A DNA stretch of 64,000 nucleotides from Lachnospiraceae bacterium (GTDB taxonomy: Bacteria; Bacillota; Clostridia; Lachnospirales; Lachnospiraceae): positions 1 through 64,000 of the forward strand of contig SVFD01000008.1 in NCBI GenBank assembly GCA_015057025.1, read 5' to 3'. Below the pieces are notes generated by a model, which was not told the origin of the DNA, searched no databases, and saw only the letters and a program-made list of their open reading frames with translations. The stretch's first letter is position 1, and each line of letters opens with the position of its first letter. Below are positions 20,606-49,186 of this stretch, one piece after another. The position numbers and the translations under genes were made by a program.

Positions 20606-20627
20606 TGATGCGCAGGAGAGCGTTAAT

Positions 20628-22241: not shown

Positions 22242-22242
22242 T

Positions 22243-24162
22243 ATGAAGAAAAAGGTTTCTGCAATTATTGCAGATTTTATGGCGAAGCAGGGCGTACGTC
22301 ATGTGTTTACCGTAACCGGCGGAGGTGCAATGCATTTAAATGATGCATTTGGACATCATCCTAAATTAAAATGTATTTATAACCATCATGAGCAGGCGTG
22401 TTCCATAGCGGCAGAAGGTTATGCAAGATTAAGCGGTAAAATTGCCTGCGTTTGTGTAACCAGCGGTCCCGGCGGAACCAATGCCATTACAGGTGTTTTA
22501 GGAGGATGGCAGGATTCTGTTCCTATGTTTGTGGTATCCGGTCAGGTTAAAAGAATTACCACAACCGAATATATGGATATACCAGTGCGTCAGCTTGGCG
22601 ATCAGGAATTTCAGATTACGGACTGCGTAGCCAATATGACAAAATATGCAGTTATGTTAACCGATGCAAAAGATGCTTTGTATCATTTGGAGAAGGCGTG
22701 GTTTCTCGCTAATCATGGTCGAAAGGGTCCGGTTTGGGTAGATGTTCCTTTAGATATTCAGGCTGCTGAGGTAGAAATTGAGACACTGCGCCATTTTGAT
22801 GAAGCAGAGTATGATAAATATGTCAGATGCTGTTTCGGAAAAGAAAACAATAATAAAAAAGATTATGTAAACTTCTGGTCGGGTTCTGCACAGGAAAAAG
22901 ATACAAAGTTACAGAAGGTTTTATCCGCAGATGCACCCGAATGGAAAGATGAATATGCAGAAACTGTGATTGCAGCATTAAAAAAGGCTAAGCGTCCGGT
23001 TATTCTTGCAGGAACAGGGATAAGGTTGGCAGACGCCCATGAAGAATTGCTTCAACTGATAGATACCTTAAAGATTCCGGTAGTGACGGCATGGAATGCC
23101 CACGATCTTTTATGGGAGGGACATGCTTTTGATTGCGGAAGACCAGGTACGGTAGGAACCAGAGGCGGAAATTTTGTGATTCAGAGTGCTGATTTTGTAT
23201 TGATTCTGGCGTGTCGCATGAATATCCGTATGATCAGTTATCAATGGGAGTACTTTGCTAAGGATGCAGTGAAAGCCTGGGTAGAAGTTGACAAGAATGA
23301 ATTATGTAAACCAACATTAAAACCGGATATTGCAATTCACGCAGATGTTAAAACTTTTCTTTTACACTTAAATCAAAAGCTAACGGAAGAAAAAGATATT
23401 TTATCTAATATGCAGCCTGATTGGCTTGCATGGTGTAGAAATATTAATATAAAATATCCTGCGGTGCGAAAGGAATATTATCAGAGCGAGAAACTGAATC
23501 CTTATGTTTTTATAAAAGAATTAACAAGTCGCCTTGCCGAAGATACGGCAATTGTCTGCGGAAACGGAAGTGCCTGCGTTGTTACATTTCAGGCAGCTCT
23601 TATAAAAAAAGGGCAGAGGTATTTTACAAATTCCGGATGTGCGGCAATGGGATACGGCTTTCCGGCAGCAATTGGTGCTTGTGTGGATGGAAGTTTACAT
23701 AATGTTATATGTATAGACGGTGACGGAAGCTTTCAAATGAATTTACAGGAATTACAGACGGTTGTACAGAACAAGTTACCTTTAAAAATAGTAATTTTAA
23801 ATAATAACGGTTATCATTCCATCCGTCAGACCCAGACCAATTTATTTAAGGGAAGAGAATTGGTAGGTGTTTCTGAAGCAAATGGTATCAGCTTTCCGAA
23901 CTTTGAGAAACTGGCATATGCGTATGATGTTCCGTATGTACGGATTGCAAATATTAAGGCGTGTGAAGATAAATTAGACGATGCACTTTCCATGGAAGGA
24001 CCGGTTCTGATTGAGGCAGTTGTTGACGAGGAGCAGAATTTTGAACCGAAACTTTCGTCAAAGGTATTACCGGACGGAACTATGGTTTCTCCGCCAATTG
24101 ATGATATGTATCCTTTTTTGGATAGGGAAGAGTATGAGGGAGTAAAAACGATTATTAAATAA
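22243..24162 (+). CDS. thiamine diphosphate-dependent enzyme (acetolactate synthase-like)
   Basis: A 639-residue ThDP enzyme. The N-terminal Pyr domain has VTGGGAMHLNDA and NHHEQACSIAAEGYARL with the conserved catalytic Glu50. The middle domain has KRPVILAGTGIRLA. The C-terminal PP domain has the ThDP motif GDGSFQMN...NNNGY (from about residue 491). Such enzymes decarboxylate a 2-oxo acid and transfer the two-carbon unit. Placed beside rfbH, it resembles the context of YerE, which adds an acetyl unit to CDP-3,6-dideoxy-4-keto-glucose in yersiniose synthesis. That role is inference. Its ATG directly follows the aldolase gene stop. Confidence 0.85.
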   Translation: MKKKVSAIIADFMAKQGVRHVFTVTGGGAMHLNDAFGHHPKLKCIYNHHEQACSIAAEGYARLSGKIACVCVTSGPGGTNAITGVLGGWQDSVPMFVVSGQVKRITTTEYMDIPVRQLGDQEFQITDCVANMTKYAVMLTDAKDALYHLEKAWFLANHGRKGPVWVDVPLDIQAAEVEIETLRHFDEAEYDKYVRCCFGKENNNKKDYVNFWSGSAQEKDTKLQKVLSADAPEWKDEYAETVIAALKKAKRPVILAGTGIRLADAHEELLQLIDTLKIPVVTAWNAHDLLWEGHAFDCGRPGTVGTRGGNFVIQSADFVLILACRMNIRMISYQWEYFAKDAVKAWVEVDKNELCKPTLKPDIAIHADVKTFLLHLNQKLTEEKDILSNMQPDWLAWCRNINIKYPAVRKEYYQSEKLNPYVFIKELTSRLAEDTAIVCGNGSACVVTFQAALIKKGQRYFTNSGCAAMGYGFPAAIGACVDGSLHNVICIDGDGSFQMNLQELQTVVQNKLPLKIVILNNNGYHSIRQTQTNLFKGRELVGVSEANGISFPNFEKLAYAYDVPYVRIANIKACEDKLDDALSMEGPVLIEAVVDEEQNFEPKLSSKVLPDGTMVSPPIDDMYPFLDREEYEGVKTIIK

Positions 24163-34090: not shown

Positions 34091-35524
34091 ATGCAGGATG
34101 AGTCACTCAAAAAAAGAGCCGTAAAAAATATTATATGGAGATTTGCAGAACGATGTGGGGCACAGTTTGTTAATCTTATTATAACCATTGTGTTGGCAAG
34201 AATTTTGCTTCCGGATGATTTCGGAACCGTTGCCATTATTAATGTTTTTATTGTTGTTTTCAATGTCTTTGTTGATAGCGGAATGGCTAATGCATTAATT
34301 CAAAAGAAGAATGTTGATAACAAAGATTTTTCATCCGTATTTTATTTTAATATATTTCAAGGTGTTGTCATTTATATCCTTTTATATTTGAGTGCGCCTT
34401 TGATTGCCGGATTTTTTAATAATACTGAATTGACAGCAATGTTAAGAGTTGCCGGTTTGGTCTTATTAATATCCAGTGTAAAAAACATACAACAGGCATA
34501 TGTTTCCAAAAAGTTGATGTTTCAGAAGTTTTTCTGGGCTACGCTGGGGGGAACTGTCGTATCCAGCGTTGTCGGAATTTGGATGGCTTGTAACGGATAT
34601 GGTGTGTGGGCATTAATTACCCAAAACATTATAAATCAATTGATAGACACGTTGATTTTATGGTTAATTGTAAAATGGCGGCCGGAAAAATATTTTTCTT
34701 TTCAAAGAATTAAAAACTTACTGTCATATGGAAGCAAGTTGCTGTTTTCTGCTTTGATAGATACGGTTTATAATAATTTCCAGAGTCTGTTTATCGGTAA
34801 ATTTTATACAGAAGCAGATTTGGCATATTATACGAAGGGTAAACAAATACCTGATTTTTTGGTAGCAAATATAAATGCTACACTAGATAGTGTACTGTTC
34901 CCGATTATGTCAGATGTACAGGATGATATCCCAAGATTAAAGAGTATGACGAGAAAAGCTATTTCTACAAGTACTACTTTATTATGGCCTATTTTAGCAG
35001 CAGTTATTGCCAGTGCACCGCAAATGATTTCGGTTTTATTAACGGATAAGTGGATTGACAGTGTATTCTTTTTAAGAGTATTTTGCATTTCTTATGCTTT
35101 GTGGCCCATACACACGGCCAATTTGAATGCCATTAAAGCTTACGGTAAAAGCGGAACCTTTTTGATACAGGAAATTATGAAAAAAACAATTGGTATCACT
35201 GTTTTGCTTCTTGTTTTTAATAAAGGAGTACACGCAATCGCTTTGTCGGTACTTATTACAGCACCAATCAGTGCTTTCATAAACTGGTTTCCCAACAGAA
35301 AGAATATTTCTTATAGATTTTGGGAGCAAATCAAAGACATTTTACCGGCATTGGGAATGGCAATCATAGAGTTTGGGGTTGTCTTTTTATTGTCATTTTT
35401 AAATATCAATATTTACATTAAATTTGGATTGCAGATTCTTTTAGGCATAGTAACATATTGTATTATGATTTACAGTTTTAAAAAAGATATTATTCAGTTA
35501 GCGTTAAGTATAGTGAGGAAATAA
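34091..35524 (+). CDS. oligosaccharide flippase (WzxC/TuaB type)
   Basis: A 477-residue membrane protein with about 12-14 helices. Its N-terminus ESLKKRAVKNIIWRFAERCGAQFVNLIITIVLARILLPDDFGTVAIINVFIVVFNVFVDSGMANALIQKK is typical of WzxC-like flippases in the MOP superfamily. It would move the undecaprenyl-linked repeat unit to the outer face of the membrane. A second flippase, fused to another domain, is encoded at 43707. The start codon is ATG; the SD AAAAGAG is weak. Ends 2 bases before the ATP-grasp gene. Confidence 0.9.
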   Translation: MQDESLKKRAVKNIIWRFAERCGAQFVNLIITIVLARILLPDDFGTVAIINVFIVVFNVFVDSGMANALIQKKNVDNKDFSSVFYFNIFQGVVIYILLYLSAPLIAGFFNNTELTAMLRVAGLVLLISSVKNIQQAYVSKKLMFQKFFWATLGGTVVSSVVGIWMACNGYGVWALITQNIINQLIDTLILWLIVKWRPEKYFSFQRIKNLLSYGSKLLFSALIDTVYNNFQSLFIGKFYTEADLAYYTKGKQIPDFLVANINATLDSVLFPIMSDVQDDIPRLKSMTRKAISTSTTLLWPILAAVIASAPQMISVLLTDKWIDSVFFLRVFCISYALWPIHTANLNAIKAYGKSGTFLIQEIMKKTIGITVLLLVFNKGVHAIALSVLITAPISAFINWFPNRKNISYRFWEQIKDILPALGMAIIEFGVVFLLSFLNINIYIKFGLQILLGIVTYCIMIYSFKKDIIQLALSIVRK

Positions 35525-35526
35525 AG

Positions 35527-36756
35527 TTGAAAATACTGGTTTTGGCAGGCGGATATGATCAAATTGCCTTAATTCAAAAAATAAAAAAGCGCGGTCATTA
35601 TGTAATTTTAGCAGATTATTATAAGAATCCACCGGCAAAAGATGTGGCAGATATGCATTATCAAATCAGTACATTGGATGAGGATGCTGTTTGCAGGGTG
35701 GCCGAGGATGAACAGGTTGATATGATAGTAACCGCATGTACGGACCAGGCTTTAATGACGGTTGCATCGGTATCCGACAGACTGGGGTTGCCCACCTATC
35801 TTTCGAAAATGACTGCGTTGAATGTAACGAATAAAAGCAATATGAAAAAGCTGTTAAACGATTGTAATGTACCAACTGCATTCAGTTATATATTTAAAAG
35901 AACAGAAGAAATAAATTATAATTTGTTTGAAGGAACATATCCGTTAGTTATTAAACCTTGTGATTGCAACAGTTCAAAAGGTGTTGTAAAGGTACAATCT
36001 TTTGAAAAGTTAAAAAAAGCAGTACAAGATGCATTTGAGTTGAGTCGTTCGCATCAGGTTATTGTTGAAGAATTTATGGAAGGTATTGAACTTTCTATTG
36101 ATATTTGGAACGGCAATGATGAAATAAAAATCCTATCTGTTACCGAAACAATCAAACGAAAAGATAGTGAAAATGATTTTACTATTTGCGGAAGCGTATA
36201 TCCGGCAGGGATTAATCAGGATGATGAAAAACAGATATATGATATTGCTGAAAGAATTATAAATGGATTCGAATTGCCGAAAGGACCAGTATTAATTCAG
36301 GCAATAAAAACCAAGAATGGTATTAAGGTGATAGAATTTAGCGCCCGTATGGGTGGCGGCACTAAATATGAATTGATTGAGTTGATTTCAGGCGTTGACA
36401 TTATGGAAGTATACACGCAATTAGTGTTGGATAATATGGTGAAAAGCGTAGAACCTAAAAAAACAACTAAAAGCATAGAGATGATATATATTTATGCGAG
36501 GGATGGGGTTTTCTGTAAATTGCTTGGTTTTGAAGATTGTAAAAAAGAAAAGATTATTGATGACTATTTTTTATATAAGACACCGGGGACAGAGATAAAA
36601 TCTGCCAAAACCAGTAGCGACAGAATCTCAGGTGTTATTATTTCGGCAACTAATCAAGAAGAATTACTGAAAAAAAAGCAGGAATTTCTTCATAGAGCAG
36701 ATATATGGGATATCAATAAAGAGAGCATGATGATAAAAGAAAGTATAGGAGAATGA
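35527..36756 (+). CDS. ATP-grasp domain carboxylate-amine ligase
   Basis: A 409-residue ATP-grasp enzyme: a pre-ATP-grasp fold (KILVLAGGYDQIALIQKIKKRG), MKKLLNDCNVPTAFSY, YPLVIKPCDCNSSKGVVKV (ATP-binding lysine and loop), VEEFMEGIELSID and the metal-site region VIEFSARMGGGTKYELI. These enzymes activate a carboxylate as acyl phosphate and join it to an amine. The start is TTG, with GAGGAAA upstream and no alternative near. It opens a four-gene run with a B12-type mutase, an opine dehydrogenase and an aminotransferase, which suggests it joins an unusual amino acid to a sugar or peptide. That is inference. Confidence 0.84.
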   Translation: MKILVLAGGYDQIALIQKIKKRGHYVILADYYKNPPAKDVADMHYQISTLDEDAVCRVAEDEQVDMIVTACTDQALMTVASVSDRLGLPTYLSKMTALNVTNKSNMKKLLNDCNVPTAFSYIFKRTEEINYNLFEGTYPLVIKPCDCNSSKGVVKVQSFEKLKKAVQDAFELSRSHQVIVEEFMEGIELSIDIWNGNDEIKILSVTETIKRKDSENDFTICGSVYPAGINQDDEKQIYDIAERIINGFELPKGPVLIQAIKTKNGIKVIEFSARMGGGTKYELIELISGVDIMEVYTQLVLDNMVKSVEPKKTTKSIEMIYIYARDGVFCKLLGFEDCKKEKIIDDYFLYKTPGTEIKSAKTSSDRISGVIISATNQEELLKKKQEFLHRADIWDINKESMMIKESIGE

Positions 36757-36762
36757 TATATC

Positions 36763-38418
36763 ATGTGTGAGAAAAAAGGTCTGGTAATGGGAGCTTCCAT
36801 CGGAAATTGTGTTCACGTTGCCGGTGTTGTTCATTTTTTAAATTTGGCTGAAAAGGAAGGATATATTACGGACTTTTTAGGTCCTGCTGTATCAGTAGAA
36901 TATTTATTTCAACAAATTATTGAAAAAAAGCCTTCCATAGTTGGAGTAAGTTATCGTTTAACGCCGGACAATGTTATTCCATTACTGGATGCAATTGATA
37001 AGAAAAGAAAAGAAGTTTCTTGGGATATTAAATGGGTATTTGGTGGAACAAAACCCGTAGCAGATGTGGCAAAAAAATACGGATTTTTTTCTTTTATTTC
37101 AGATGGTTTTGATGATATTAATGACAGCATCCGTTTTTTACGGGGAAAAGAGCAGAAGGATTCAAAAGAAAGCTATGCGAATAACATTATTGATAGAATT
37201 CATGAAAATTATCCATATCCCGTATTAAGACATCACTACGGAAGACCGTCTTTGGAGGAAACGGTAGAAGGTGTAAGAAAGATAGCAGAAGCAAAGGTTT
37301 TGGATGTGATTTCATTGGGACCGGATCAGAATGCACAAGAGTTTTTCTTTCATCCCGAGCAAATGAAGAATGAGTTTACCGGGGCCGGAGGAGTTCCGGT
37401 TAGAACAAGAGAAGATTTTATAAAATTGAAAGAAGCATCCCAATGCGGAAATTATCCATTAATGAGATGCTATAGCGGAACTGAAGATGTTTTTGACTAT
37501 GCCCAGATGCTTTTAGAAACTATAGATAATGCATGGACTGCAATTCCATTGTGTTGGTATAACGAATTGGACGGCAGAGGCAAAAGAGCAATAGAAGTAG
37601 CGATGAAAGAAGCACAGGAACTGATTCACTGGCATGCAAAGAAAGAAGTTACTGTAGAAATAAATGAACCGCATCATTGGGGATTAAGAGATTCGCATGA
37701 TGTTATTGCGGTTGCCATGGCTTATATTAGCGCATATAATGCGAAAAAATTAGGAGTCAAAAATTATATTGCACAGTACATGTTTAATAATCCTAACGGC
37801 CTTTCTTTTTCGATGGATTTAGCTAAAATTTTGGCAATGATAGAGATGGTTGAAAGTTTACATGATTCTGAGTTTACATCATACCGCGAAGTACGTACAG
37901 GGTTGGCTTTGTTGAATGCAGATATGTATGTTGCAAAAGGCCAGCTTTCAGCATCAACTTTTATGCAGATGGTGGTAAAACCGCATATTATTCATGTGGT
38001 AGGATTTTGTGAGGCAGATCACGCTGCAAGTGCGGAAGAAGTAATTGAAAGCTGTCGTATAGTAAAAGGTGTTATACGACATTGCCTGGAAGATAATTTT
38101 TCGATTGAAAAGGATGAATCTATCATAAGAAGAAAAGAAGAATTGATTTCAGAGGCAAAGTTTTTATTAGATTTTATTTGCAAAGAATATAAAGAATATG
38201 ATGATCCTTTAGCAAATTCGGAGGTTTTATCCGATTGTATTAAAAAGGGATATATTGATGCTGTGCACATTTTAAAAAATGATAAGTTTATGGGAAAGCT
38301 TAAGACATCTGTTTGTGAAGGGAAATGTGTAGCCATTGATCCGATTACGCAGGAACCCATGACAGAAGCGCAAAGATTAAAGCAAATTCACGAACGGTTT
38401 AAAGGAAACGGAAAATAA
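36763..38418 (+). CDS. cobalamin-dependent mutase-like protein (glutamate mutase type), B12 and TIM-barrel domains in one chain
   Basis: A 551-residue protein. Residues 5-125 look like a B12-binding Rossmann domain: VMGASIGNCVHVAGVVHFLNLAEKEGY keeps the H-x-x-G of the DxHxxG signature (the Asp position is Cys), followed by PSIVGVSYRLTP and WVFGGTKPVADVAKKYGFF. The rest looks like the large subunit of methylaspartate (glutamate) mutase: PVRTREDFIKLKEA, NEPHHWGLRDSHDVIAVAMAYISAYNAKKLGVKNYIAQYMFNNPNG and the EADHAASAEEVIESC end. In known glutamate mutase these parts are separate chains (S and E). I infer an AdoCbl radical rearrangement of an amino acid. Confidence 0.72.
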   Translation: MCEKKGLVMGASIGNCVHVAGVVHFLNLAEKEGYITDFLGPAVSVEYLFQQIIEKKPSIVGVSYRLTPDNVIPLLDAIDKKRKEVSWDIKWVFGGTKPVADVAKKYGFFSFISDGFDDINDSIRFLRGKEQKDSKESYANNIIDRIHENYPYPVLRHHYGRPSLEETVEGVRKIAEAKVLDVISLGPDQNAQEFFFHPEQMKNEFTGAGGVPVRTREDFIKLKEASQCGNYPLMRCYSGTEDVFDYAQMLLETIDNAWTAIPLCWYNELDGRGKRAIEVAMKEAQELIHWHAKKEVTVEINEPHHWGLRDSHDVIAVAMAYISAYNAKKLGVKNYIAQYMFNNPNGLSFSMDLAKILAMIEMVESLHDSEFTSYREVRTGLALLNADMYVAKGQLSASTFMQMVVKPHIIHVVGFCEADHAASAEEVIESCRIVKGVIRHCLEDNFSIEKDESIIRRKEELISEAKFLLDFICKEYKEYDDPLANSEVLSDCIKKGYIDAVHILKNDKFMGKLKTSVCEGKCVAIDPITQEPMTEAQRLKQIHERFKGNGK

Positions 38419-38419
38419 T

Positions 38420-39472
38420 ATGAATGAAAAGGTAACAATAATTGGCGGCGGACATCAGGGATTAGCAATGGCTGCGCATTTAACAAAACACGGAGTTAAG
38501 TGCTATTTGTGGAACAGGACTGTGGAAAATATTAAAGATATCGTGAAAGATAAGGAGATTATTTGCAAGGGTATCTATGAGGAAACATTAAAAATAGAAT
38601 GTGCGTCAGGTAATATTCAGGATGTTTTACAGAAAACAATTATGGTTACTACACCATCTACAGCACATAAGGATGTGGCTGCAATGCTTGCAAAATATGT
38701 GGATGATTCATTTTGTATTATATTGAATCCGGGCAGAACATTTGGAGCAGTAGAATTTATCAGAACTTTGAAGGAAAACGGATGCACTAAGCTTCCTATT
38801 GTTGCAGAGACACAGACAATTGCATATACCTGTAGAAGAGAAAAGAAGAATATAGTATATATATATGCATTAAAGAAAGGGATTCCAATTGCAACTTATA
38901 AAAGTGCAGATGTGCATAGAGTGTTTGATTATATGCCCGAATGTTTATCAGAAGCATTTATCCCGGTAAATTCTTACTATCAGACTTCTCTAAGTAATAT
39001 AGGAATGATTCTTCACTGTGCTCCGGTGCTGATGAATATTGGTTGGATAGAAAATGACAAGGTGGATTTCAAATATTATTACGAGGGAATATCTCCATCT
39101 GTGGCGGCTTTTTTAGAAAAAATGGACAATGAGCGCATAGAAGTGGCGCATAAAATGGGAATAACTGTATTATCTGTAAAAGAATGGTTGCAACATACAT
39201 ATTCTACTGAAGGCGAAAACCTATATGAACATTTAAGAAGTAATATTTTTTATAAGGATATTGATGCTCCATTAAGTATTCATCATAGATATATTGAAGA
39301 GGATGTGCCTAACGGATTAGTACCGATTGAAGCACTGGGAAAACAGCTCGGAGTTTCAACTCTCAACATTTCTTTGATTATTGATTTGGCAAATGCAGTT
39401 ATGAATACGAATTATCGTAAAAACGGCAGGAATATACAACATCTACTTAAAGAAGAGGATAAAAAATGGTAA
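38420..39472 (+). CDS. opine (octopine/nopaline-type) dehydrogenase
   Basis: A 350-residue NAD(P)-dependent enzyme: KVTIIGGGHQGLAMAAHLTKHGVKCYLWNRT is the Rossmann entry, VTTPSTAHKDVAAMLAKYV and IILNPGRTFGAVEFI follow, and the C-terminal half has the octopine-DH fold (SLSNIGMILHCAPVLMNIGWI, YEGISPSVAAFLEKMDNERIEVAHKMGI). The family reductively joins a 2-oxo acid to an amino group. Opine units such as N-(1-carboxyethyl)-lysine are known in some enterobacterial O-antigens, so such an enzyme in a glycan locus makes chemical sense. It follows the mutase gene by one base and overlaps the aminotransferase gene by 7. Confidence 0.82.
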   Translation: MNEKVTIIGGGHQGLAMAAHLTKHGVKCYLWNRTVENIKDIVKDKEIICKGIYEETLKIECASGNIQDVLQKTIMVTTPSTAHKDVAAMLAKYVDDSFCIILNPGRTFGAVEFIRTLKENGCTKLPIVAETQTIAYTCRREKKNIVYIYALKKGIPIATYKSADVHRVFDYMPECLSEAFIPVNSYYQTSLSNIGMILHCAPVLMNIGWIENDKVDFKYYYEGISPSVAAFLEKMDNERIEVAHKMGITVLSVKEWLQHTYSTEGENLYEHLRSNIFYKDIDAPLSIHHRYIEEDVPNGLVPIEALGKQLGVSTLNISLIIDLANAVMNTNYRKNGRNIQHLLKEEDKKW

Positions 39473-40569
39473 ACAAAAACATTTATGTTACACAGGCTTC
39501 ACTGCCACCATTTGAAGAATACATACAGGAAATAAGTGATATATGGCAATCCCGCAGATTAACCAATATGGGAGAAAAGCATGTTAAGCTTAGTGATGAG
39601 TTAAAATCTTATTTGGATGTGGACAATATAGAATTATTATCAAATGGTCATATGGCGTTGGAATTATCGTTGCAGGCATTGAAACTGGAGGGAGAAGTCA
39701 TTACCACTCCTTTTACGTTTGCGTCAACGACACATTCTATTGTACGTAATGGATTGAAACCTGTTTTTTGTGATATAAAAGCATCGGATTTTACGATAGA
39801 TGAAACGAAAATAGAAGAACTGATTACGGATAAAACATCAGCCATTGTTCCTGTGCATGTTTATGGAAACATTTGCAATATTGAAGCAATTGAAAACATT
39901 GCCAAGAAACATAATTTAAAAGTGATTTATGATGCGGCTCATAGTTTTGGAGAACGATATAAAAATAAGGCTGTTGGAAACTTTGGAGATGTTTCATGTT
40001 TCAGTTTTCATGCAACAAAGGTATTTAATACAATAGAAGGCGGAGCTGCATGTTTTCGGGATAAAGAGCTTGGTTTAGAGATATACCGGCTTAAAAATTT
40101 CGGTATTAGAGGTCCGGAGGTTGTGGATGGTATCGGTGCTAATGCCAAAATGAATGAATTTGCGGCAGCAATGGGAATTTGTAACTTGCGTCACATACCG
40201 GAACAGATAAATAAACGCAAGGCATGTTATGAAAGATATATGAATCAGTTGCGGGATGTGGATGGCATTGATCTGAATTCGATTCAAGCAGAAGTAGAAT
40301 CTAATTATTCATATTTTCCGGTTGTTTTTTATGATGAGTATGGGATGTCCAGGGACGATGTTTTCAATAAATTAGCAGAGCAAAATATTCATGCCAGAAA
40401 ATATTTTTATCCTTTAACAAATATGTTTGATTGTTATTCGGGCATGTACGATGCAAATAAGACCCCGATTGCTTTGGATATCAGTAAGAGGATATTAACA
40501 TTACCCCTGTATGCAGATTTGGAATTTGATGTTATTGATAAAGTATGTGAAATTATACGTAAAAAATAA
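39466..40569 (+). CDS. DegT/DnrJ/EryC1 family sugar aminotransferase
   Basis: A 367-residue PLP enzyme: SNGHMALELSLQALKL, TTPFTFASTTHSIVRNGLKPVFCDI, IYDAAHSFGERY (PLP-binding Asp) and SFHATKVFNTIEGGAA with the Schiff-base lysine, unlike RfbH where this lysine is lost. It transfers an amino group from glutamate to a keto-sugar nucleotide, for example VioA- or FdtB-type. An amino sugar would supply the amine needed by the neighbouring ATP-grasp enzyme. The SD AAGAGGA lies in the preceding gene, with 7 bases overlap. Confidence 0.86.
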   Translation: MVNKNIYVTQASLPPFEEYIQEISDIWQSRRLTNMGEKHVKLSDELKSYLDVDNIELLSNGHMALELSLQALKLEGEVITTPFTFASTTHSIVRNGLKPVFCDIKASDFTIDETKIEELITDKTSAIVPVHVYGNICNIEAIENIAKKHNLKVIYDAAHSFGERYKNKAVGNFGDVSCFSFHATKVFNTIEGGAACFRDKELGLEIYRLKNFGIRGPEVVDGIGANAKMNEFAAAMGICNLRHIPEQINKRKACYERYMNQLRDVDGIDLNSIQAEVESNYSYFPVVFYDEYGMSRDDVFNKLAEQNIHARKYFYPLTNMFDCYSGMYDANKTPIALDISKRILTLPLYADLEFDVIDKVCEIIRKK

Positions 40570-40596
40570 GCGTGTAAGGAAGGTTTGACAAAAAAT

Positions 40597-41691
40597 ATGT
40601 ATGACTACCTAATTGTAGGAGCCGGTCTTTTCGGGGCGGTTTTTGCACATGAAGCAACAAAAAAAGGAAAAAAGTGTCTTTTAATAGACAAGCGTTCGCA
40701 TATTGGTGGTAATGTATACACCGAAGATGTGGAAGGCATTCATGTTCACAAATACGGTGCGCACATTTTTCATACATCAAATAAAAAGGTATGGAATTAT
40801 GTAAATCAATTTACGGAGTTCAACAATTATGTAAATCAGCCTGTGGCAGTATATAAAGATGAATTATATAACCTTCCTTTTAACATGAATACATTTAGTA
40901 AAATGTGGGGCATTAAGACTCCGCAGGAAGCAAAAGATATGATTGCATCCCAGATTGCGGATTTGGATATAGAAGAACCGAAGAATCTGGAAGAGCAGGC
41001 ATTAAAGTTAGCGGGAAGGGATGTATACGAGAAACTGATTAAAGGTTATACAGAGAAACAGTGGGGACGTCCCTGTAGTGAATTACCTTCTTTTATCATT
41101 AAAAGACTTCCGCTACGTTTCCGTTATGATAATAATTATTTCAATGACCGCTATCAGGGAATTCCGATTGATGGATATACTGCAATGGTGGAAAAGATGT
41201 TGGAGGGAATTGAAGTAAGAACGAATACGGATTATTTTCGGTTTATCAGGGAAAATCCCAATATTGCCAATAAAACGGTTTATACCGGTATGATTGATGA
41301 ATTTTTTGATTTCTGTTACGGACATTTACAGTATCGCTCCGTACGTTTTGAATCGGAAGTATTAGATTGTGAGAATTATCAAGGCAATGCAGTGGTGAAT
41401 TATACGGACTGTGAGGTGCCGTATACGAGGATTATTGAGCATAAGCATTTTGCTTTTCAGGAAGGAAGTAAAACCGTAATCAGCAGGGAGTACTCGGAAG
41501 AATGGAAGCCGGGAGCAGAGCCTTATTATCCCATTAATGATGATAAGAATACTGTATTATTGCAAAAGTATATGGAACTGGCAGCAAAGCAGGAAAATGT
41601 GATTTTTGGCGGGCGTCTGGGATTGTATCGTTATTATGATATGGATAAGGTAATTGAAGCTGCTTTGGATTGTGTGGAAAAGCAGATATAA
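40597..41691 (+). CDS. glf: UDP-galactopyranose mutase
   Basis: A 364-residue flavoenzyme interconverting UDP-galactopyranose and UDP-galactofuranose. Signatures: YDYLIVGAGLFGAVFAHEATKKGKKCLLIDKRSHIGGNVYTEDVEGIHVHKYGAHIFHTSNKKVWNYV at the N-terminus, GYTEKQWGRPCSELP, RLPLRFRYDNNYFNDRYQGIP and the FGGRLGLYRYYDMD end. A TTG at 40585 is in frame but overlaps the SD AAGGAAGG; the ATG gives the usual family start. It implies galactofuranose in the glycan, with the GlfT-like transferase at 32074 as a possible user. Confidence 0.95.
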   Translation: MYDYLIVGAGLFGAVFAHEATKKGKKCLLIDKRSHIGGNVYTEDVEGIHVHKYGAHIFHTSNKKVWNYVNQFTEFNNYVNQPVAVYKDELYNLPFNMNTFSKMWGIKTPQEAKDMIASQIADLDIEEPKNLEEQALKLAGRDVYEKLIKGYTEKQWGRPCSELPSFIIKRLPLRFRYDNNYFNDRYQGIPIDGYTAMVEKMLEGIEVRTNTDYFRFIRENPNIANKTVYTGMIDEFFDFCYGHLQYRSVRFESEVLDCENYQGNAVVNYTDCEVPYTRIIEHKHFAFQEGSKTVISREYSEEWKPGAEPYYPINDDKNTVLLQKYMELAAKQENVIFGGRLGLYRYYDMDKVIEAALDCVEKQI

Positions 41692-41704
41692 AGGGTATGA
41701 CAGC

Positions 41705-43702
41705 ATGGACAAAATAAGTGTAATTATACCGGTCTATAATGTAGAGGCTCATTTGCCCAAATGTGTGGAGAGTGTAATTCATCAAGCTTATTCCAATTTG
41801 GAGATTATTTTGGTGAATGACGGTTCTACGGATGATAGTGGGGCAATCTGTGATTCCTATGCAAAAAAGGATGCAAGAATCCGGGTAATACATAAAAAAA
41901 ACGGCGGACTTTCGGATGCAAGGAATTGTGGAATTGCAGAAGCGAAAGGGGAGTATTTGGCATTTGTGGATGCAGATGATTATATTGCTCCGGATATGTT
42001 TCGAATTATGTACGAAAGGATAAAGCAGGATGTATCGGATATGGCAGTCTGCAGTTTCCTTTTTGTAAATGAAAAAGGCGAAGCTTTAGTTAGTGAAAAT
42101 GAAGAAAATCCAATATCGGATGAGACTGTTGATAGAGTTGGTGCTGTACGAAAACTGGAGTATGTGAAGAAGTGGTATTTTTCGGTGGCCTGGAATAAAT
42201 TGTACAGCAGATGTTTGTTTGATGACATTAAATTCCCACAGGGCAGATTTCATGAAGATGAATATATTGCCCACATCATTTATCATAAATGTCAAAAAGT
42301 ATCTTTTATAAGCGATACGTTGTATTTTTATGTACAGCGAGAAGGAAGTATAACCGACACAATTAGCTTGAAACATCACTTGGATGAAGCAAATGCAATG
42401 CTTGAAAGAGCAGTTTTTGCAATGGATAAAGGGTACGATGCCTTATCAAGGGTTTCTTTGGATGTCATGATTCATAATATTTATGAATGTTACGGAAATA
42501 AGGATGATAACAGATATGGTGAGGAAATAAAAAAACTACAAAAAAAGTGCAGAAAGAACACCCTTCAGGTACTTTTATCACCGCTTCCTATAACGGAGAA
42601 AATCCGGTATATGACTTTTTGTATCAATGTTAAGTGGTTACACAATATCCATAACAATAACATTAAAAGAAAAAAGAATCGGTTTGATAAAAAGATTTGT
42701 AAAAATATAAATAAAATCCGTAAAGCCGGACAAAATTGCATTTTTCTCATGGCAACTCCTGTGCACGGGAATCTTGGAGACCATGCTATAGTATATGCGC
42801 AAAAGAAATTACTGCAGGATCTTCAGTTGCAAGATTATCTGATAGAAATTTCTATGGAAGAGTATAAGACATATAAGGAAGTGTTAAAGGAACGAATTCA
42901 ATCTTCTGATATGATTTTACTTTGCGGCGGCGGTCATTTGGGAACTCTTTGGCCGGCAGAAGATAATGTGATTTCGGAAATTGTTGATACCTATCGGAAT
43001 AATCCGATAATTGTCTTTCCGCAGACCTGTTTTTATGATGAAAATGATATGGCGAAGCAACGTATGTTAAGAAACCGTATCATTTATTCCAAGGCCGGTA
43101 AGCTGAAAGTATTCCTTCGGGACCAAAAGTCTTATAAAATTTTTTCTTCTGAATTTCCAATGGTACGAAACTATTTGGTACCGGATATGGTAACTTATAT
43201 GACACTGAAACCTTCTTTCTGCAAAACGGGAAGTTGTTTGATTTGTATGCGGGATGATAAAGAAAGTATTTTATCTACAACAGAAAGAAAACATTTATTG
43301 GAGGCGCTATCAGAAAAGGGTTATGATGTCATAATATGCTCCACCGTGGAACAGTATGGAATTGATAAAAAGGCAAGAGAAAGTGTACTTCATAAGAAGT
43401 GGCAACAATTTGCACAGGCCCGTCTGGTAGTGACAGACAGGCTCCACGGAATGCTTTTTGCAGCAATCAACCAAACACCGTGTTTGTACATGGATAATAT
43501 AAGCGGAAAAGTAAGCGGACAGGCAGAATGGCTGAAGGATTTAAGTTACATTACGGCGGTGAAGGGTGCAGAGGAACTGTTTGATAAAATAAAAGAATTT
43601 GAAAGTCCGGATACCGGGTTTGAATATAGCAACCAAGTGTTACAACCCTATTATGAAATATTAAAAAAAGAGATTAAAGATTCTTATTATTCTGTAAGGT
43701 AA
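41705..43702 (+). CDS. fusion: family 2 glycosyltransferase + polysaccharide pyruvyltransferase
   Basis: A 665-residue two-domain protein. Residues 1-320 are GT2 (ISVIIPVYNVEAHLPKCVESVIHQAYSNLEIILVNDGSTDDSG, VDADDYIAPDMF, SVAWNKLYSRCLFDDIKFPQGRFHEDEYIA), a relative of the four tandem transferases. Residues 340-665 are polysaccharide pyruvyltransferase (HGNLGDHAIVYAQ, ILLCGGGHLGTLWP, IVFPQTCF, FLRDQKSY, VVTDRLHGMLFAAINQTPCLYMDN), which puts a pyruvate ketal on a sugar and adds negative charge. A basic linker (NIKRKKNRFDKKICKNINKIRK) joins them. Start chosen at 41705; glf ends 14 bases before. One chain would add and then pyruvylate the same residue. Confidence 0.85.
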   Translation: MDKISVIIPVYNVEAHLPKCVESVIHQAYSNLEIILVNDGSTDDSGAICDSYAKKDARIRVIHKKNGGLSDARNCGIAEAKGEYLAFVDADDYIAPDMFRIMYERIKQDVSDMAVCSFLFVNEKGEALVSENEENPISDETVDRVGAVRKLEYVKKWYFSVAWNKLYSRCLFDDIKFPQGRFHEDEYIAHIIYHKCQKVSFISDTLYFYVQREGSITDTISLKHHLDEANAMLERAVFAMDKGYDALSRVSLDVMIHNIYECYGNKDDNRYGEEIKKLQKKCRKNTLQVLLSPLPITEKIRYMTFCINVKWLHNIHNNNIKRKKNRFDKKICKNINKIRKAGQNCIFLMATPVHGNLGDHAIVYAQKKLLQDLQLQDYLIEISMEEYKTYKEVLKERIQSSDMILLCGGGHLGTLWPAEDNVISEIVDTYRNNPIIVFPQTCFYDENDMAKQRMLRNRIIYSKAGKLKVFLRDQKSYKIFSSEFPMVRNYLVPDMVTYMTLKPSFCKTGSCLICMRDDKESILSTTERKHLLEALSEKGYDVIICSTVEQYGIDKKARESVLHKKWQQFAQARLVVTDRLHGMLFAAINQTPCLYMDNISGKVSGQAEWLKDLSYITAVKGAEELFDKIKEFESPDTGFEYSNQVLQPYYEILKKEIKDSYYSVR

Positions 43703-43706
43703 TGAT

Positions 43707-46418
43707 ATGGAAAATAAAATAATTGTGGAAAAACCGCAGATTAGCGGCAATACAATAAAATATCATTATGAGATTACAGGGCCCTGGCAGGAAGCTTTTA
43801 CGGACATGCGTGCCTTTGAACTTCAATACAGTACGGATGTTACTATGGTGCCTGAGGCTGTAGCAATCCTTCCTTTTCTTGCGAATGTAATGCCTGTTGC
43901 ATGGGTATATGATGCAGTTGTGGAAGCAGAGGAATGTGACAGCGATTTTTATGACAGTTTGGATGGGATAAAAAAAGGATATGCAGATATGTATCCCATG
44001 CTTGATTGGAAAGGTTCTTTACAGGTAAAGAATGTAAAGCTGTGCAATAACCGTGCTAAAGAGGGAAGTATTGCTTTCTTTTCAGGCGGGGTTGATTCTT
44101 ACGATACCCTAATTCGACATAAGGATGAAAAGCCTGTGCTGATGTCCATATGGGGGGCTGACATAGCCACGGATGATGAAGTGGGTTTTAAGCAGGTAGA
44201 GAATCTGTTAAAGCAAACGGCAGAAGAATATCATGCGGATTGGATTACGGTTAAAAGCGGTTTTCGTGATTTCTTAAATTATGATGTACTGGGAGCAAAG
44301 ATTCAAATATCTAAGGATAATTGGTGGCATGGCTTTCAACATGGAATCGGGATTATTACCCACAGTGCACCCATTGCATATTTACAACAAAAGAAGATGA
44401 TTTATCTGGCGGCTTCCTTAACGTTAGCAGATAAGGGTATTGTTACCTGTGCTTCTGATCCTACGATTGATAATGCCATGCAGTTTTGTGGTTGTAACGT
44501 TTGGCATGACGGATATGATGTAACAAGACAGCAGAAGATTCAGAAACTTGTTTCATATGCTAAGGAAGAAAAAAGGAATATTACGCTTAGAGTATGTTGG
44601 GAAGCACCGGGCGGAAAGAATTGCTGTCAATGTGAAAAGTGTTTTCGTACCATGCTTGGCATTTATGCGGAAGGTGAATTACCTCAAAATTATGGTTTTG
44701 ATTGTTCTGTAGATAAATTAGGTACTTTATCGAAACAGATTCGCAGAGGAAAAGAAATTAAGATAGATTCGGTGTATTATCCCATGTATAAAGAAATTCG
44801 GGACAGGATGAGGGAAAAATATGCAAAGGAAGAGATAACCAAATCCCTTCGATGGTTTTATGATTTCAAACCCGAAAAAACATATAACAGGGCACTTGTG
44901 AACGTGGCATGCAGTGTGATAACACTGGTATTAAATTTAGTCATTAGTTTTTTTCTTTCACCTTTTATTGTAGAAAAAATTGGTGTGGAAGCCAATGGTT
45001 TTGTAATGTTGGCCAATTCTTTTGTAATGTATGCCCAAATCATTGTGGCAGCACTAAACAGTATGGCGGCAAGATATATTACCATGAGTTATGTGCAGAA
45101 GGATTATAAAAAAGCGCAGATTTATTATAATTCCGTCTTTTGGGGGAATTTAATTATCGTTGCGGTTTTGATTTTGCCGGCTTCCCTTTTTATTGTTTTT
45201 ATGGAGTTATTTCTTCAGATTCCGCCGGATTTGGTAATGGATGTAAAAATTCTGTTCTCCTTTGTGTTTTTTAACTTTTTTATAGGAACGGCAATGCCTA
45301 ATTGGGATTGCGGAACCTATGCAACTAACCGGTTGGATCGGATGTATATTCCGGAGATGATTGCCACCGTATTTCGAAGTATTTTTTTATTAATTGTATT
45401 TATGATTTTTGTACCTAAGGTTTGGTATATCGGGTTGGCGGCAAGTCTGGTATGTTTAATTTGTTTGGGAGCCAATGCCTATAATACCCATAAGCTGACG
45501 CCTGAATTAGGTATTGTGTTGAAACCAGGCAAGATTATTTGTTCCAAAGTGGCTATCAGGGAATTGGTAGGATCCGGTATTTGGAATTCCGTATCCAATG
45601 CCGGAGTTATGATGCTGGATGGTTTGGATTTGTTGCTTTGCAATCTTTTACTGGGACCTACAGTTATGGGAATCGCTACACTTGCCAAGGTACTTGGAGA
45701 ATATGTGGGACAACTGTCAATGGCAGTAAGGAATGCATTGGCCCCGGGACTTACCATACACTATGGTAAGGGTGATATGGATACAATGATGACAGAATTA
45801 AAGCGTGCCATGAAAATCACCTCCGTATTTGTGACAATACCGGTTGCAGGAATTATTGTTTTAGGCGGTAGGTTTTTTGCATTATGGGTTCCCTCACAGG
45901 ATGCCCAACTTTTACATATGCTTGCTTGCATTAGTATAGGAGGATATATTTTTACAGGCGGAATCCAGATTTTATATACAGTGTTTCCTACGGTTAACAA
46001 AGTAAAAGAGAATGCCCTTGCTTTATTGATAAGCGGTGTGATTTCCGTAATTTTAACGATTCTTCTTTTGTGTTTTACGGATTTGGGTATTTGGGCGATT
46101 ATGCTTGTGAGTGAGATTGTATGTTTATTGCGTAATATGCTGTTTACGGTACCGGCTACTGCGAAATATCTTGGAGTGCCGGCCAAGCACTTCTATGCAA
46201 GAGTGGGGCTTACGGTAGTAAGTACCATTGTTTTGGTGGTAGCAGGTCTGGCAGTTACCTTTTATATACCTCAAAACGGTTGGGGAAGCTTTGTTTTGGC
46301 TGTTTTAGTAATGGGGATAGCAAGTCTTGTGATTCAAGGTATGTTTATCCTAAATAAACAGGAGCGTCGGTATATTATACAAGCCATAATGCGCAGGATA
46401 AATGCAGTACGAAAGTGA
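43707..46418 (+). CDS. fusion: PP-loop (QueC-like) ATPase domain + MOP-family flippase
   Basis: A 903-residue protein. Residues 1-395 contain a PP-loop: IAFFSGGVDSYDTL (SGGVDS, 126-131), SIWGADIATDD and a cysteine cluster CCQCEKC (306-312), as in QueC-like and other N-type ATP pyrophosphatases, which adenylate a carboxyl or amide and often bind Zn. From about residue 398 to the end there are 12-14 membrane helices (VACSVITLVLNLVISFFLSPFIVEKIGVEANGFVMLANSFV...) with the Wzx-like MATE fold. The frame is continuous through the junction. I know of no described flippase with this partner. The soluble domain may modify the glycan before transport. Confidence 0.8.
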   Translation: MENKIIVEKPQISGNTIKYHYEITGPWQEAFTDMRAFELQYSTDVTMVPEAVAILPFLANVMPVAWVYDAVVEAEECDSDFYDSLDGIKKGYADMYPMLDWKGSLQVKNVKLCNNRAKEGSIAFFSGGVDSYDTLIRHKDEKPVLMSIWGADIATDDEVGFKQVENLLKQTAEEYHADWITVKSGFRDFLNYDVLGAKIQISKDNWWHGFQHGIGIITHSAPIAYLQQKKMIYLAASLTLADKGIVTCASDPTIDNAMQFCGCNVWHDGYDVTRQQKIQKLVSYAKEEKRNITLRVCWEAPGGKNCCQCEKCFRTMLGIYAEGELPQNYGFDCSVDKLGTLSKQIRRGKEIKIDSVYYPMYKEIRDRMREKYAKEEITKSLRWFYDFKPEKTYNRALVNVACSVITLVLNLVISFFLSPFIVEKIGVEANGFVMLANSFVMYAQIIVAALNSMAARYITMSYVQKDYKKAQIYYNSVFWGNLIIVAVLILPASLFIVFMELFLQIPPDLVMDVKILFSFVFFNFFIGTAMPNWDCGTYATNRLDRMYIPEMIATVFRSIFLLIVFMIFVPKVWYIGLAASLVCLICLGANAYNTHKLTPELGIVLKPGKIICSKVAIRELVGSGIWNSVSNAGVMMLDGLDLLLCNLLLGPTVMGIATLAKVLGEYVGQLSMAVRNALAPGLTIHYGKGDMDTMMTELKRAMKITSVFVTIPVAGIIVLGGRFFALWVPSQDAQLLHMLACISIGGYIFTGGIQILYTVFPTVNKVKENALALLISGVISVILTILLLCFTDLGIWAIMLVSEIVCLLRNMLFTVPATAKYLGVPAKHFYARVGLTVVSTIVLVVAGLAVTFYIPQNGWGSFVLAVLVMGIASLVIQGMFILNKQERRYIIQAIMRRINAVRK

Positions 46419-46553: not shown

Positions 46554-47327
46554 ATGAAAGCAGTAATTCTGGCGGGAGGTCTTCCCAGTACAATCAGTGA
46601 TGTGAAAAGCGGTATTCCAAAGCCTATGGCTGAAATCGGAGGACGGCCCTTATTATGGCATATTATGAAGCTGTACTCACACTATGGTTTTCGTGAATTT
46701 ATTATATGTGGCGGATATAAGGTTAACATAATTAAGGAATATTTTAAGGATTTTTATATCTATCAGTCTGACATTACCGTAGATTTGGCCAGTAATGAAA
46801 TTACCATTCATAATAAAAGAACGGAAGACTGGAAGGTGACGGTGGTAGATACCGGGTTGGAAGCAACTACCAGTGAGCGAATTTTACAGGTAAAAGAATT
46901 TGTTAAAGGCGAGGATTTTTTTGTAACCTATGGTGATTGTTTATCAAACATGAATTTATTGGAATTGGCAAATGTCCATAAGGAAAAAAGTTCATTTTTA
47001 ACTATGGCTGTTGCAAAGCCCACAGGACGCCATTCCGTGCTTCCTATCGGAAATGATGATACGTTGGTTAATGCAAAGGAAAATGTATTAACTTCGGATG
47101 AAGCATGGGTAAATGCCAGCTGCTATATTCTTTCGCCGAAAGCAGTAGAGGCTCTGTCGGGAGAAGAATTAAATGAAGCTTTTATGCGTAAAATGGCAGA
47201 GCGCGAGAAAGTACATATATACAGACATAAAGGTTTCTGGTCTCCGGTGGAAACCATGAGAGAAAGTGTAGCCTTGGAAGAAATGTGGGAAGAGGGATGT
47301 GCCCCTTGGAAAGTATGGGAGAACTAG
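46554..47327 (+). CDS. sugar nucleotidyltransferase, RfbF paralogue with degenerate signature
   Basis: A 257-residue protein clearly homologous to the next gene (shared GGRP-L-WHIMKLYSHYG, KVTVVDTGLE, TYGD, HKGFWSPVETM and AP-WKVW). The nucleotide-binding loop G-G-x-G-S/T-R is changed to GGLPSTIS, losing the Gly and the Arg, and the YGDGVSDVD metal region reads YGDCLSNMN, losing one Asp. It may be inactive, regulatory or of altered specificity. SD GAGGGAA precedes the ATG. It is abutted by rfbF without a gap, consistent with tandem duplication. Confidence 0.78.
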   Translation: MKAVILAGGLPSTISDVKSGIPKPMAEIGGRPLLWHIMKLYSHYGFREFIICGGYKVNIIKEYFKDFYIYQSDITVDLASNEITIHNKRTEDWKVTVVDTGLEATTSERILQVKEFVKGEDFFVTYGDCLSNMNLLELANVHKEKSSFLTMAVAKPTGRHSVLPIGNDDTLVNAKENVLTSDEAWVNASCYILSPKAVEALSGEELNEAFMRKMAEREKVHIYRHKGFWSPVETMRESVALEEMWEEGCAPWKVWEN

Positions 47328-48101
47328 ATGAAAGCAGTTATTCTTGCAGGCGGAAAAGGTAGCCGAATTAGTGAAGAATCCCGATTTAAACCAAAACCGT
47401 TGGTGGAAATCGGAGGAAGACCTATTTTGTGGCATATTATGAAATTATATTCGCATTATGGTGTGAATGAATTTATAATCTGTTGCGGATATAAGGGACA
47501 TTTAATAAAAGAATATTTTGTGAATTACAATAATACCGGTCGGGTAAGTTATTTTGATTTGGAGAAGATGCAGACTTCTATAGATGCGGAAGAGAAGTTT
47601 AAGGTGACTTTAGTGGATACCGGACTTGAAACCTTAACTGCAGGTCGACTTCAAAAAATTAAGCCTTACCTTGATGGTGAAGAGGAATTCTTTTTGACCT
47701 ATGGGGACGGAGTCAGTGATGTAGATATTAGCAAATTGCTGGAATTTCACAGAAAGCAGGGTAAGTGTGTTACCATTACTACCTATCCTAAGGAAGAACG
47801 TTTCGGATGTTTGAAATTAAAGGAAAATTTGTCTGAAGTGGAAAGTTTTCATGAAAAGAACAAAGCGGAAGCAGCATTAATCAATGCCGGATTTATGGTA
47901 ATGAATAAAGAGGTATTTGATTATCTAGGTAATGGAAGTGAAATGTTGGAGGACGGACCCTTTGAAGCCTTATCCGGAGCCGGAGAAATGGCAGCTTTTA
48001 CACATAATGGTTTCTGGTCACCGATGGATACCTTAAAAGAGCAAATGTATCTGGACAATATGTGCAGGGCAAACAGTGCCCCATGGATGGTATGGAAGTG
48101 A
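47328..48101 (+). CDS. rfbF: glucose-1-phosphate cytidylyltransferase
   Basis: A 257-residue enzyme forming CDP-glucose from CTP and glucose-1-phosphate. Canonical motifs: ILAGGKGSRISEES (nucleotide loop with Arg), KPKPLVEIGGRPILWHIMKLYSHYGVNEFIICCGYKG, LVDTGLETLTAGRL, YGDGVSDVD (metal Asp) and NGFWSPMDTLKEQ. It begins directly after the stop of the degenerate paralogue and is followed by rfbG after 8 bases; together they start the CDP-3,6-dideoxyhexose pathway completed by rfbH at 19265. Confidence 0.94.
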   Translation: MKAVILAGGKGSRISEESRFKPKPLVEIGGRPILWHIMKLYSHYGVNEFIICCGYKGHLIKEYFVNYNNTGRVSYFDLEKMQTSIDAEEKFKVTLVDTGLETLTAGRLQKIKPYLDGEEEFFLTYGDGVSDVDISKLLEFHRKQGKCVTITTYPKEERFGCLKLKENLSEVESFHEKNKAEAALINAGFMVMNKEVFDYLGNGSEMLEDGPFEALSGAGEMAAFTHNGFWSPMDTLKEQMYLDNMCRANSAPWMVWK

Positions 48102-48109
48102 GGTAGTGT

Positions 48110-49186
48110 ATGGATTTAAGTTTTTATAAAAATAAAAGGGTTTTTGTTACCGGACATACAGGCTTCAAGGGAGCCTGGCTATCCTTTCTTTTGTTGGAAG
48201 CCGGAGCCGAAGTGACAGGTTATGCACTAAATCCGCCGACAACCCCTTCTTTGTATAAGTTATGTAAACTTGAAAAACAAATGAAATCCGTAATTGGAGA
48301 TGTGAGGGATTATAAGCAACTAAAGAAGGAATTTGATGAGGCAAGACCGGAAGTGGTTTTTCATCTTGCTGCCCAGCCATTGGTTAGGGAGTCATATGTT
48401 TCACCGCGGGAAACTTATGAAATCAATGTTATGGGAACTGTGAATGTATTAGAGTGTGTTAGAAATTCTGATACGGTTCAGTCGGTGATTATAGTCACTA
48501 CGGACAAGGTGTACCGGAATGATAACCGTGTTAAAGGATATGTGGAGGCGGATATTTTAAACGGTTATGATCCGTATTCCAATTCCAAGTCCTGTGCCGA
48601 TATATTGACAGATAGTTATGTAAACTCATTTTTGCGAAATAAAAATATACCGGTTTCCGTTTTGCGCGCCGGCAATGTGATAGGCGGCGGCGATTTTGCA
48701 AAAGACAGGCTTGTTCCGGATTGTTTTCGTGCCATTCAGACTAACAGTAAGGTTATGATTCGAAATCCAAGGTCTACCAGACCTTTTCAACATGTATTAG
48801 AGCCCTTAATGGTTTATCTTATGATTGCAGAAAGACAGATAAATAAGCCGGAATTGGCAGGGGCATATAATATTGGTCCGGATGAAACAGACGTTCAAAG
48901 TGTAAGTGAAATGCTGATGCATTTTCAGACCATTTGGAATGGTGGTGAGTTTGGTAAAAATACTCCCTTTGACTGGTCTTATTCAGAAGAAGAAAATGCA
49001 CCTCATGAATCAGCAATGCTTAGTTTGAACTGCGATAAACTTAAAAGTAATTTTAGCTGGAAGCCAAAGTGGAATGCTTATGAAGCTGTTTATAAAAGTA
49101 TAGAATGGATGCAGTATTATCTTAAAGGAAAAGATGTGTCCGTTTGTATGCAAAAACAAATGAAAGAATATATGTCACAAAAATAA
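48110..49186 (+). CDS. rfbG: CDP-glucose 4,6-dehydratase
   Basis: A 358-residue extended SDR producing CDP-4-keto-6-deoxyglucose, the substrate of RfbH. Visible: FVTGHTGFKGAWLSFLLLEAGAEVTGYAL (NAD loop), VFHLAAQPLVRESY, VIIVTTDKVYRND, then YSNSKSCADI containing the YxxxK, and RAGNVIGGGDFAKDRLVPDCFRA. These are distinctive for RfbG rather than RmlB. SD GAGGTAG precedes the ATG. Co-transcribed with rfbF and the polytopic protein gene. Confidence 0.94.
   Translation: MDLSFYKNKRVFVTGHTGFKGAWLSFLLLEAGAEVTGYALNPPTTPSLYKLCKLEKQMKSVIGDVRDYKQLKKEFDEARPEVVFHLAAQPLVRESYVSPRETYEINVMGTVNVLECVRNSDTVQSVIIVTTDKVYRNDNRVKGYVEADILNGYDPYSNSKSCADILTDSYVNSFLRNKNIPVSVLRAGNVIGGGDFAKDRLVPDCFRAIQTNSKVMIRNPRSTRPFQHVLEPLMVYLMIAERQINKPELAGAYNIGPDETDVQSVSEMLMHFQTIWNGGEFGKNTPFDWSYSEEENAPHESAMLSLNCDKLKSNFSWKPKWNAYEAVYKSIEWMQYYLKGKDVSVCMQKQMKEYMSQK

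Follow-up and report, generated by a model that had tools for sequence, protein, structure and literature searches.

A putative single-chain B12-dependent mutase paired with an opine dehydrogenase, in a candidate surface-glycan module of a Lachnospiraceae bacterium

Introduction

Glutamate mutase GlmES (methylaspartate mutase; PDB 1cb7, 6h9e) combines a Rossmann B12-binding domain, with its histidine cobalt ligand, and a TIM barrel. Other described relatives of the system treated here are the pyridoxal phosphate (PLP) enzymes D-ornithine 4,5-aminomutase and D-lysine 5,6-aminomutase (3kow, 1xrs, 8t0v) and, in the octopine dehydrogenase family, N-(1-D-carboxylethyl)-L-norvaline dehydrogenase (1bg6). 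Opines also occur on glycans: the O-antigen of Providencia alcalifaciens O35 has an alanopine derivative of 4-amino-4,6-dideoxyglucose (Qui4N), according to a reference title in PMC10609480, and this alanopine-Qui4N, known from that title alone, which tells nothing of genes, is the kind of product that we propose below. Here we describe four contiguous genes from a Lachnospiraceae bacterium (contig SVFD01000008.1, positions 1 to 64,000, hereafter the window) that encode an ATP-grasp ligase, a B12-binding mutase, an opine dehydrogenase and a DegT aminotransferase; genes and their products are named by the start position of the open reading frame (ORF), as 35527, 36763, 38420 and 39466.

We propose, at a probability of about 0.5, that these genes serve a surface-glycan locus as an accessory module, in which the mutase and the opine dehydrogenase yield a rearranged opine-type acid that is amide-linked to an amino sugar. 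At similar, roughly even odds, the mutase family would make up a third class, by substrate, within the glutamate-mutase/aminomutase superfamily, with a near-constant opine dehydrogenase partner, present in Bacillota, at least one Chloroflexi and at least one Adlercreutzia contig; it would perform a B12 radical rearrangement of an opine or its precursor and, captured by surface-glycan loci, would be the first B12 mutase with a part in building a glycan. Among the matches listed from the open-access literature (titles and abstract openings), none was found to deal with a mutase-opine dehydrogenase pair or to place a B12 mutase in a route to a glycan. The novelty appears to lie in the substrate class and the pathway, as fold and superfamily have been described before.

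Fold and substrate site of the mutase

Pfam places a B12-binding domain (PF02310, 5e-9) strictly within residues 7-104 of the 36763 product, and the C-terminal two thirds, searched alone, have no significant match in Pfam or NCBIfam. Relatives, a comparison of profiles and a fold model reveal the relationship to glutamate mutase, an identification that covers the families present in the VIA and Foldseek tables. In the predicted fold a Rossmann domain (residues ~1-126) is followed in the same chain by a glutamate-mutase-type TIM barrel (~135-541), homologous to the glutamate mutase E chain; unlike GlmES, the protein thus has its B12 domain at the N-terminal end of a single chain, and it is paired with an opine dehydrogenase. 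A reading of the window from sequence alone, without database searches (the sequence-only reading), had named a glutamate-mutase-like cobalamin enzyme from motifs, and the B12-mutase fold agrees with it. PF02310 is matched at E <= 0.01 by 42 of 43 mutase relatives. We propose that the 36763 product is an adenosylcobalamin (AdoCbl) radical mutase of the glutamate-mutase superfamily; its radical chemistry and use of AdoCbl in this host are what we infer from this placement.

The window's mutase was aligned with 42 others (43 in all; that of locus L067 was omitted because of its length). In glutamate mutase, R66, R100 and R149 form an arginine claw for carboxylates and E171 is a further substrate-site residue, according to an excerpt of PMC9545868. 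The claw positions are occupied by His158, Gln192 and Tyr237, invariant in 43/43, and that of E171 by Pro262 (proline in 39, serine in 4). This residue mapping was verified by homologue L101, which has the claw and related residues at their published numbers. The cobalt-ligand histidine (His18) and Gly160, the equivalent of G68, are kept throughout, and at the aspartate position of the DxHxxG motif 37 members have Cys and 3 have Asp, the remaining 3 showing a gap. Two glutamate mutase residues that we take to line the adenosine site part ways: E330 is retained as Glu417 and K326 replaced by Val413, each in all 43. Invariant polar residues in the altered site are R235, R272, N301, H304, R309 and R378. 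With the claw replaced in every member, glutamate was rejected as substrate, and the methylaspartate-like product that had been suggested as an example for this enzyme is not supported, because the arginines that would bind glutamate are gone.

PLP aminomutases were likewise rejected. Lysine K629 in the Rossmann domain of ornithine aminomutase forms the PLP imine, as stated in an excerpt of PMC3958899. The OraE protein L135 has a lysine 11 residues past its cobalt-ligand histidine, taken to be K629; the mutase family has Ala (40/43) or Leu (3/43) there, and at no position from 27 to 32 is Lys found in more than 2/43. The barrel's profile match to D-ornithine and D-lysine aminomutases falls short of significance (E 0.04, probability 1.3). 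The motif GGVP occurs in 37 of the 43 mutases, 6 of 7 OraE and none of 19 GlmE, and so the family looks intermediate yet distinct. Judged from these alignments, the substrate site differs from that of glutamate mutase as well as from those of the PLP aminomutases.

Distribution and pairing with opine dehydrogenase

Within the host's own family any match was found in 14 of 299 genomes, extending beyond the B12 domain in only three (the window's genome, G055 and G008). A phylum-wide draw gave matches at E < 1e-60 in 86 of 398 genomes, own genome counted; 186 pass 0.001, the other 100 being weaker and partial and, among the matches listed, almost all to the B12 domain. A separate contig scan added seven loci (48-71% identity), with Adlercreutzia and a Chloroflexi metagenome-assembled genome among the carriers. 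The plasmid collection yielded no tblastn match at E 1e-5, and plasmid spread was rejected on that ground.

The 38420 product has both the N-terminal nucleotide-binding domain and the Octopine_DH helical domain (PF02317, 8e-49), and 1bg6, its closest solved relative, aligns nearly full length (phmmer 7e-57, residues 6-342). It therefore belongs to the true opine dehydrogenase family, as the sequence-only reading had it; what sets it apart from the 1bg6 enzyme is that its gene stands next to that of a B12 mutase, in a glycan locus.

Neighbourhoods were assembled for 57 loci: the seven of the contig scan plus 50 others, namely G055, G008 and 48 from the phylum draw, fetched from 47 of its 85 other genomes (two in G409) hand-picked for spread. 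An opine dehydrogenase lies on the same strand within 300 nt of the mutase in 52 of the 57, farther away in L087 and L124, and was not found around the mutase in L053, L067 and L077. Outside the window's clade it precedes the mutase, often overlapping it; within the clade it follows. Three kinds of partner family, with Pfam confirmation for examples, occur near the pair on the same strand: (i) AsnB-like amidotransferases at seven loci (L020, L054, L072, L077, L079, L080, L128), of which L077 is a tblastn match whose tested ORF, probably in the wrong frame, had no Pfam match; (ii) Ddl-like ATP-grasp ligases at five (L070, L071, L076, L088, L125), with others on the opposite strand in L073, L089 and L130; and (iii) ATP-grasp genes like the window's at seven (L015, L016, L018, L019, L021, L052, L091). 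Since the pair extends beyond glycan loci, the glycan module looks like a co-option. At L126 (G317:C1, 156-5432) a dehydrogenase-mutase pair of the broad group is followed by genes resembling, by appearance only, a sugar epimerase and a uridine diphosphate (UDP)-galactopyranose mutase, which may mean that a glycan locus captured the pair a second time.

The four-gene module

The window-type mutase forms a clade (support 0.999) of eight loci: the window, L015-L019, L021 and L052; trees of mutase and dehydrogenase were built from the 41 loci in which both had been called as genes. In all eight the dehydrogenase gene immediately follows the mutase gene, in seven (all but L017) an ATP-grasp gene immediately precedes it, and in six (window, L016, L017, L018, L021, L052) a DegT gene of at least 50% identity lies within 5 kb. 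The exact four-gene order is limited to three of the eight (window, L018, L021), and the four genes are close together in the window, L016, L018, L021, L052 and L091. Recurring in other genomes, the grouping is not due to chance, and the absence of co-conservation that the sequence-only reading named as refuting it was not observed.

The 35527 product resembles PurD and L-amino-acid ligases (GARS_A 7e-17, ATP-grasp_4 3e-15, weak LAL_C2), its best PDB matches being 4dim_A and 3vot_A, the latter an L-amino acid ligase. DesI/PseC-like features mark the 39466 product (PF01041 4e-95; PDB 2po3 1e-50), and NCBIfam DesI is its best model (5e-79), at 266 bits against a cut-off of 650, so that it is a relative and not an equivalog; we take it to be a sugar 4-aminotransferase. 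Both family assignments by motif are supported. The ATP-grasp proteins of L016, L018, L021, L052 and L091 are 39-51% identical to the window's (49% in L091, where the gene is beside the dehydrogenase), and DegT there is at least 50% identical; without a close DegT, at L015 and L019, identity is 24-27%. This covariation, to which L017 is an exception, suggests that the ligase acts on the DegT product.

In L091 the genes run DegT, ATP-grasp, opine dehydrogenase, mutase. The dehydrogenase there falls inside the window-type clade (support 0.965), and the mutase, of a 633-residue type grouped with L087 and L090 (support 1.0), shares ~32% identity with the window's in their best-matching stretch. 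That a distant paralogue fills the same slot argues that a mutase step is needed in the module.

One neighbour gene was tested with Pfam for each outside window-type locus, and in six of seven it is a glycosyltransferase, flippase or sugar nucleotidyltransferase; that of L052 had no Pfam match. The same gene kinds were found beside the 633-residue type at L090, L091 and L123. In L123 (G427:C7, 6466-8369) this mutase, near the glycan genes, is split over two reading frames, by a broken gene or an assembly error. By motif, an RmlA-like gene adjoins the module in L016, and RmlA-like and RmlB/epimerase-like genes do so in L017; the window has cytidine diphosphate (CDP)-glucose enzymes at 47328 and 48110.

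Proposed pathway and alternatives

In the proposed pathway the single-chain B12 radical mutase would work with the opine dehydrogenase, which would use NAD(P)H to join an amino acid and a 2-oxo acid reductively, the two enzymes together giving a rearranged opine-type (N-carboxyalkyl amino) acid. DegT would supply a nucleoside diphosphate (NDP)-4-amino-4,6-dideoxyhexose, the ATP-grasp ligase would couple the acid to the sugar amine as an amide, and glycosyltransferases and the flippase would incorporate the decorated sugar into the polymer. Putative in this scheme are the sequence in which mutase and dehydrogenase act, every substrate, the linkage through an amide and the identity of the sugar. 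To our knowledge few kinds of B12-dependent mutase reaction have been described. This family is widespread and apparently uncharacterised, and with its conserved partner enzyme and altered active site it opens a new radical rearrangement to direct test. For carriers of the glycan version, vitamin-B12 supply would be tied to cell-surface chemistry, and the module is a lead to unusual opine-decorated glycans.

The dehydrogenase might instead act first and the mutase rearrange the opine itself, in a new radical reaction. The leading position of the dehydrogenase gene in the broad group, often overlapping the mutase, and the invariant polar residues kept in the altered site favour this order; gene order is not reaction order, however, and the window's clade is reversed, and we consider it possible at perhaps one chance in four. 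It is distinctly unlikely that the pair makes a free metabolite (an osmolyte, a metallophore or similar) and stands in glycan loci incidentally. Most neighbourhoods outside the window's clade have no evident glycan genes upon ORF inspection, which was not a systematic annotation, and peptidase C26 genes occur in the surroundings of L121 and L122, joined in L122 by genes resembling peptide transporters (by appearance only), which suggests a catabolic version of the pair. Set against this are the glycan-type neighbours in the outside window-type loci and at L090, L091 and L123, and the ATP-grasp and DegT genes that travel with the pair.

Somewhat less probable still is use of another corrinoid form, such as methylcobalamin, by a protein that is not a radical mutase. 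The Cys for Asp in DxHxxG and the Val for Lys326 are in keeping with it, as is the window's genome (G000), in which neither an adenosyltransferase nor a MutL match was found. AdoCbl mutases are reactivated by MutL. Its gene stands within the gene string in L078, L124 and L130, and L121 and L122 encode it as one polypeptide with the mutase (~1,220 residues, preceded by a distant opine dehydrogenase). As in glutamate mutase, MutL thus partners some members, and its linkage in 5 of 57 loci is good but indirect support for radical-mutase function. An adenosyltransferase (PF01923 or PF02572) is present in 43 of 45 mutase genomes (exceptions: the window's and G008), which is only suggestive since there were no mutase-lacking controls. 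MutL exceeds its cut-off in 30 of 45; this count says little on the mutase family because many MutL genes sit in clusters like those of ornithine aminomutase (7 of 14 inspected regions have such a gene). We assume that the host imports AdoCbl. Downstream of the only cobalamin riboswitch match in its genome lie a gene for a DUF4430 protein and one for a putative small membrane protein (L133, 5863-6890), a possible B12 uptake system. That a glutamate mutase makes 3-methylaspartate for attachment to the glycan is very improbable: glutamate mutase E is the closest fold and sequence family, but the claw and E171 replacements described above speak against it.

Eight B12-binding matches were found in the window's genome, seven over the cut-off and including an 807-residue frame. 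Five consecutive ORFs with B12-binding domains, of 442-477 residues, lie at G000:C10:16221-21957.

The surrounding glycan locus

The four genes (Table 1) are as tightly packed as first described: 6 bases separate the first from the second and 1 base the second from the third, while the third and fourth overlap by 7 bases. Pfam confirms their placement in a glycan locus, with a flippase directly upstream and a UDP-galactopyranose mutase directly downstream.

Table 1. Features of the module and its immediate surroundings in the window
Feature	Position	Strand	Details
Wzx-type flippase, directly upstream of module	34091..35524	+	Polysacc_synt_3 9e-94
ATP-grasp ligase ORF	35527..36756	+	TTG start, 409 aa
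B12-binding / mutase ORF	36763..38418	+	551 aa
Opine dehydrogenase ORF	38420..39472	+	350 aa
DegT/DnrJ sugar aminotransferase ORF	39466..40569	+	367 aa
UDP-galactopyranose mutase, directly downstream of module	40585..41691	+	GLF 7e-86
GT2 glycosyltransferase fused to polysaccharide pyruvyl transferase, one ORF	41654..43702	+	PF00535 2e-41, PF04230 4e-25

Also in this locus is a 903-residue ORF (43707-46418) with no Pfam match. Two further regions of the window, 19265-24162 and 46554-49186, encode RfbH (707 bits, over the cut-off), an HMGL-like aldolase, an acetolactate-synthase-like thiamine diphosphate enzyme, a CDP-glucose 4,6-dehydratase and two glucose-1-phosphate cytidylyltransferases (one above and one below the cut-off). 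These genes suggest a CDP-3,6-dideoxyhexose route, whose product we presume is perhaps a yersiniose-like branched sugar.
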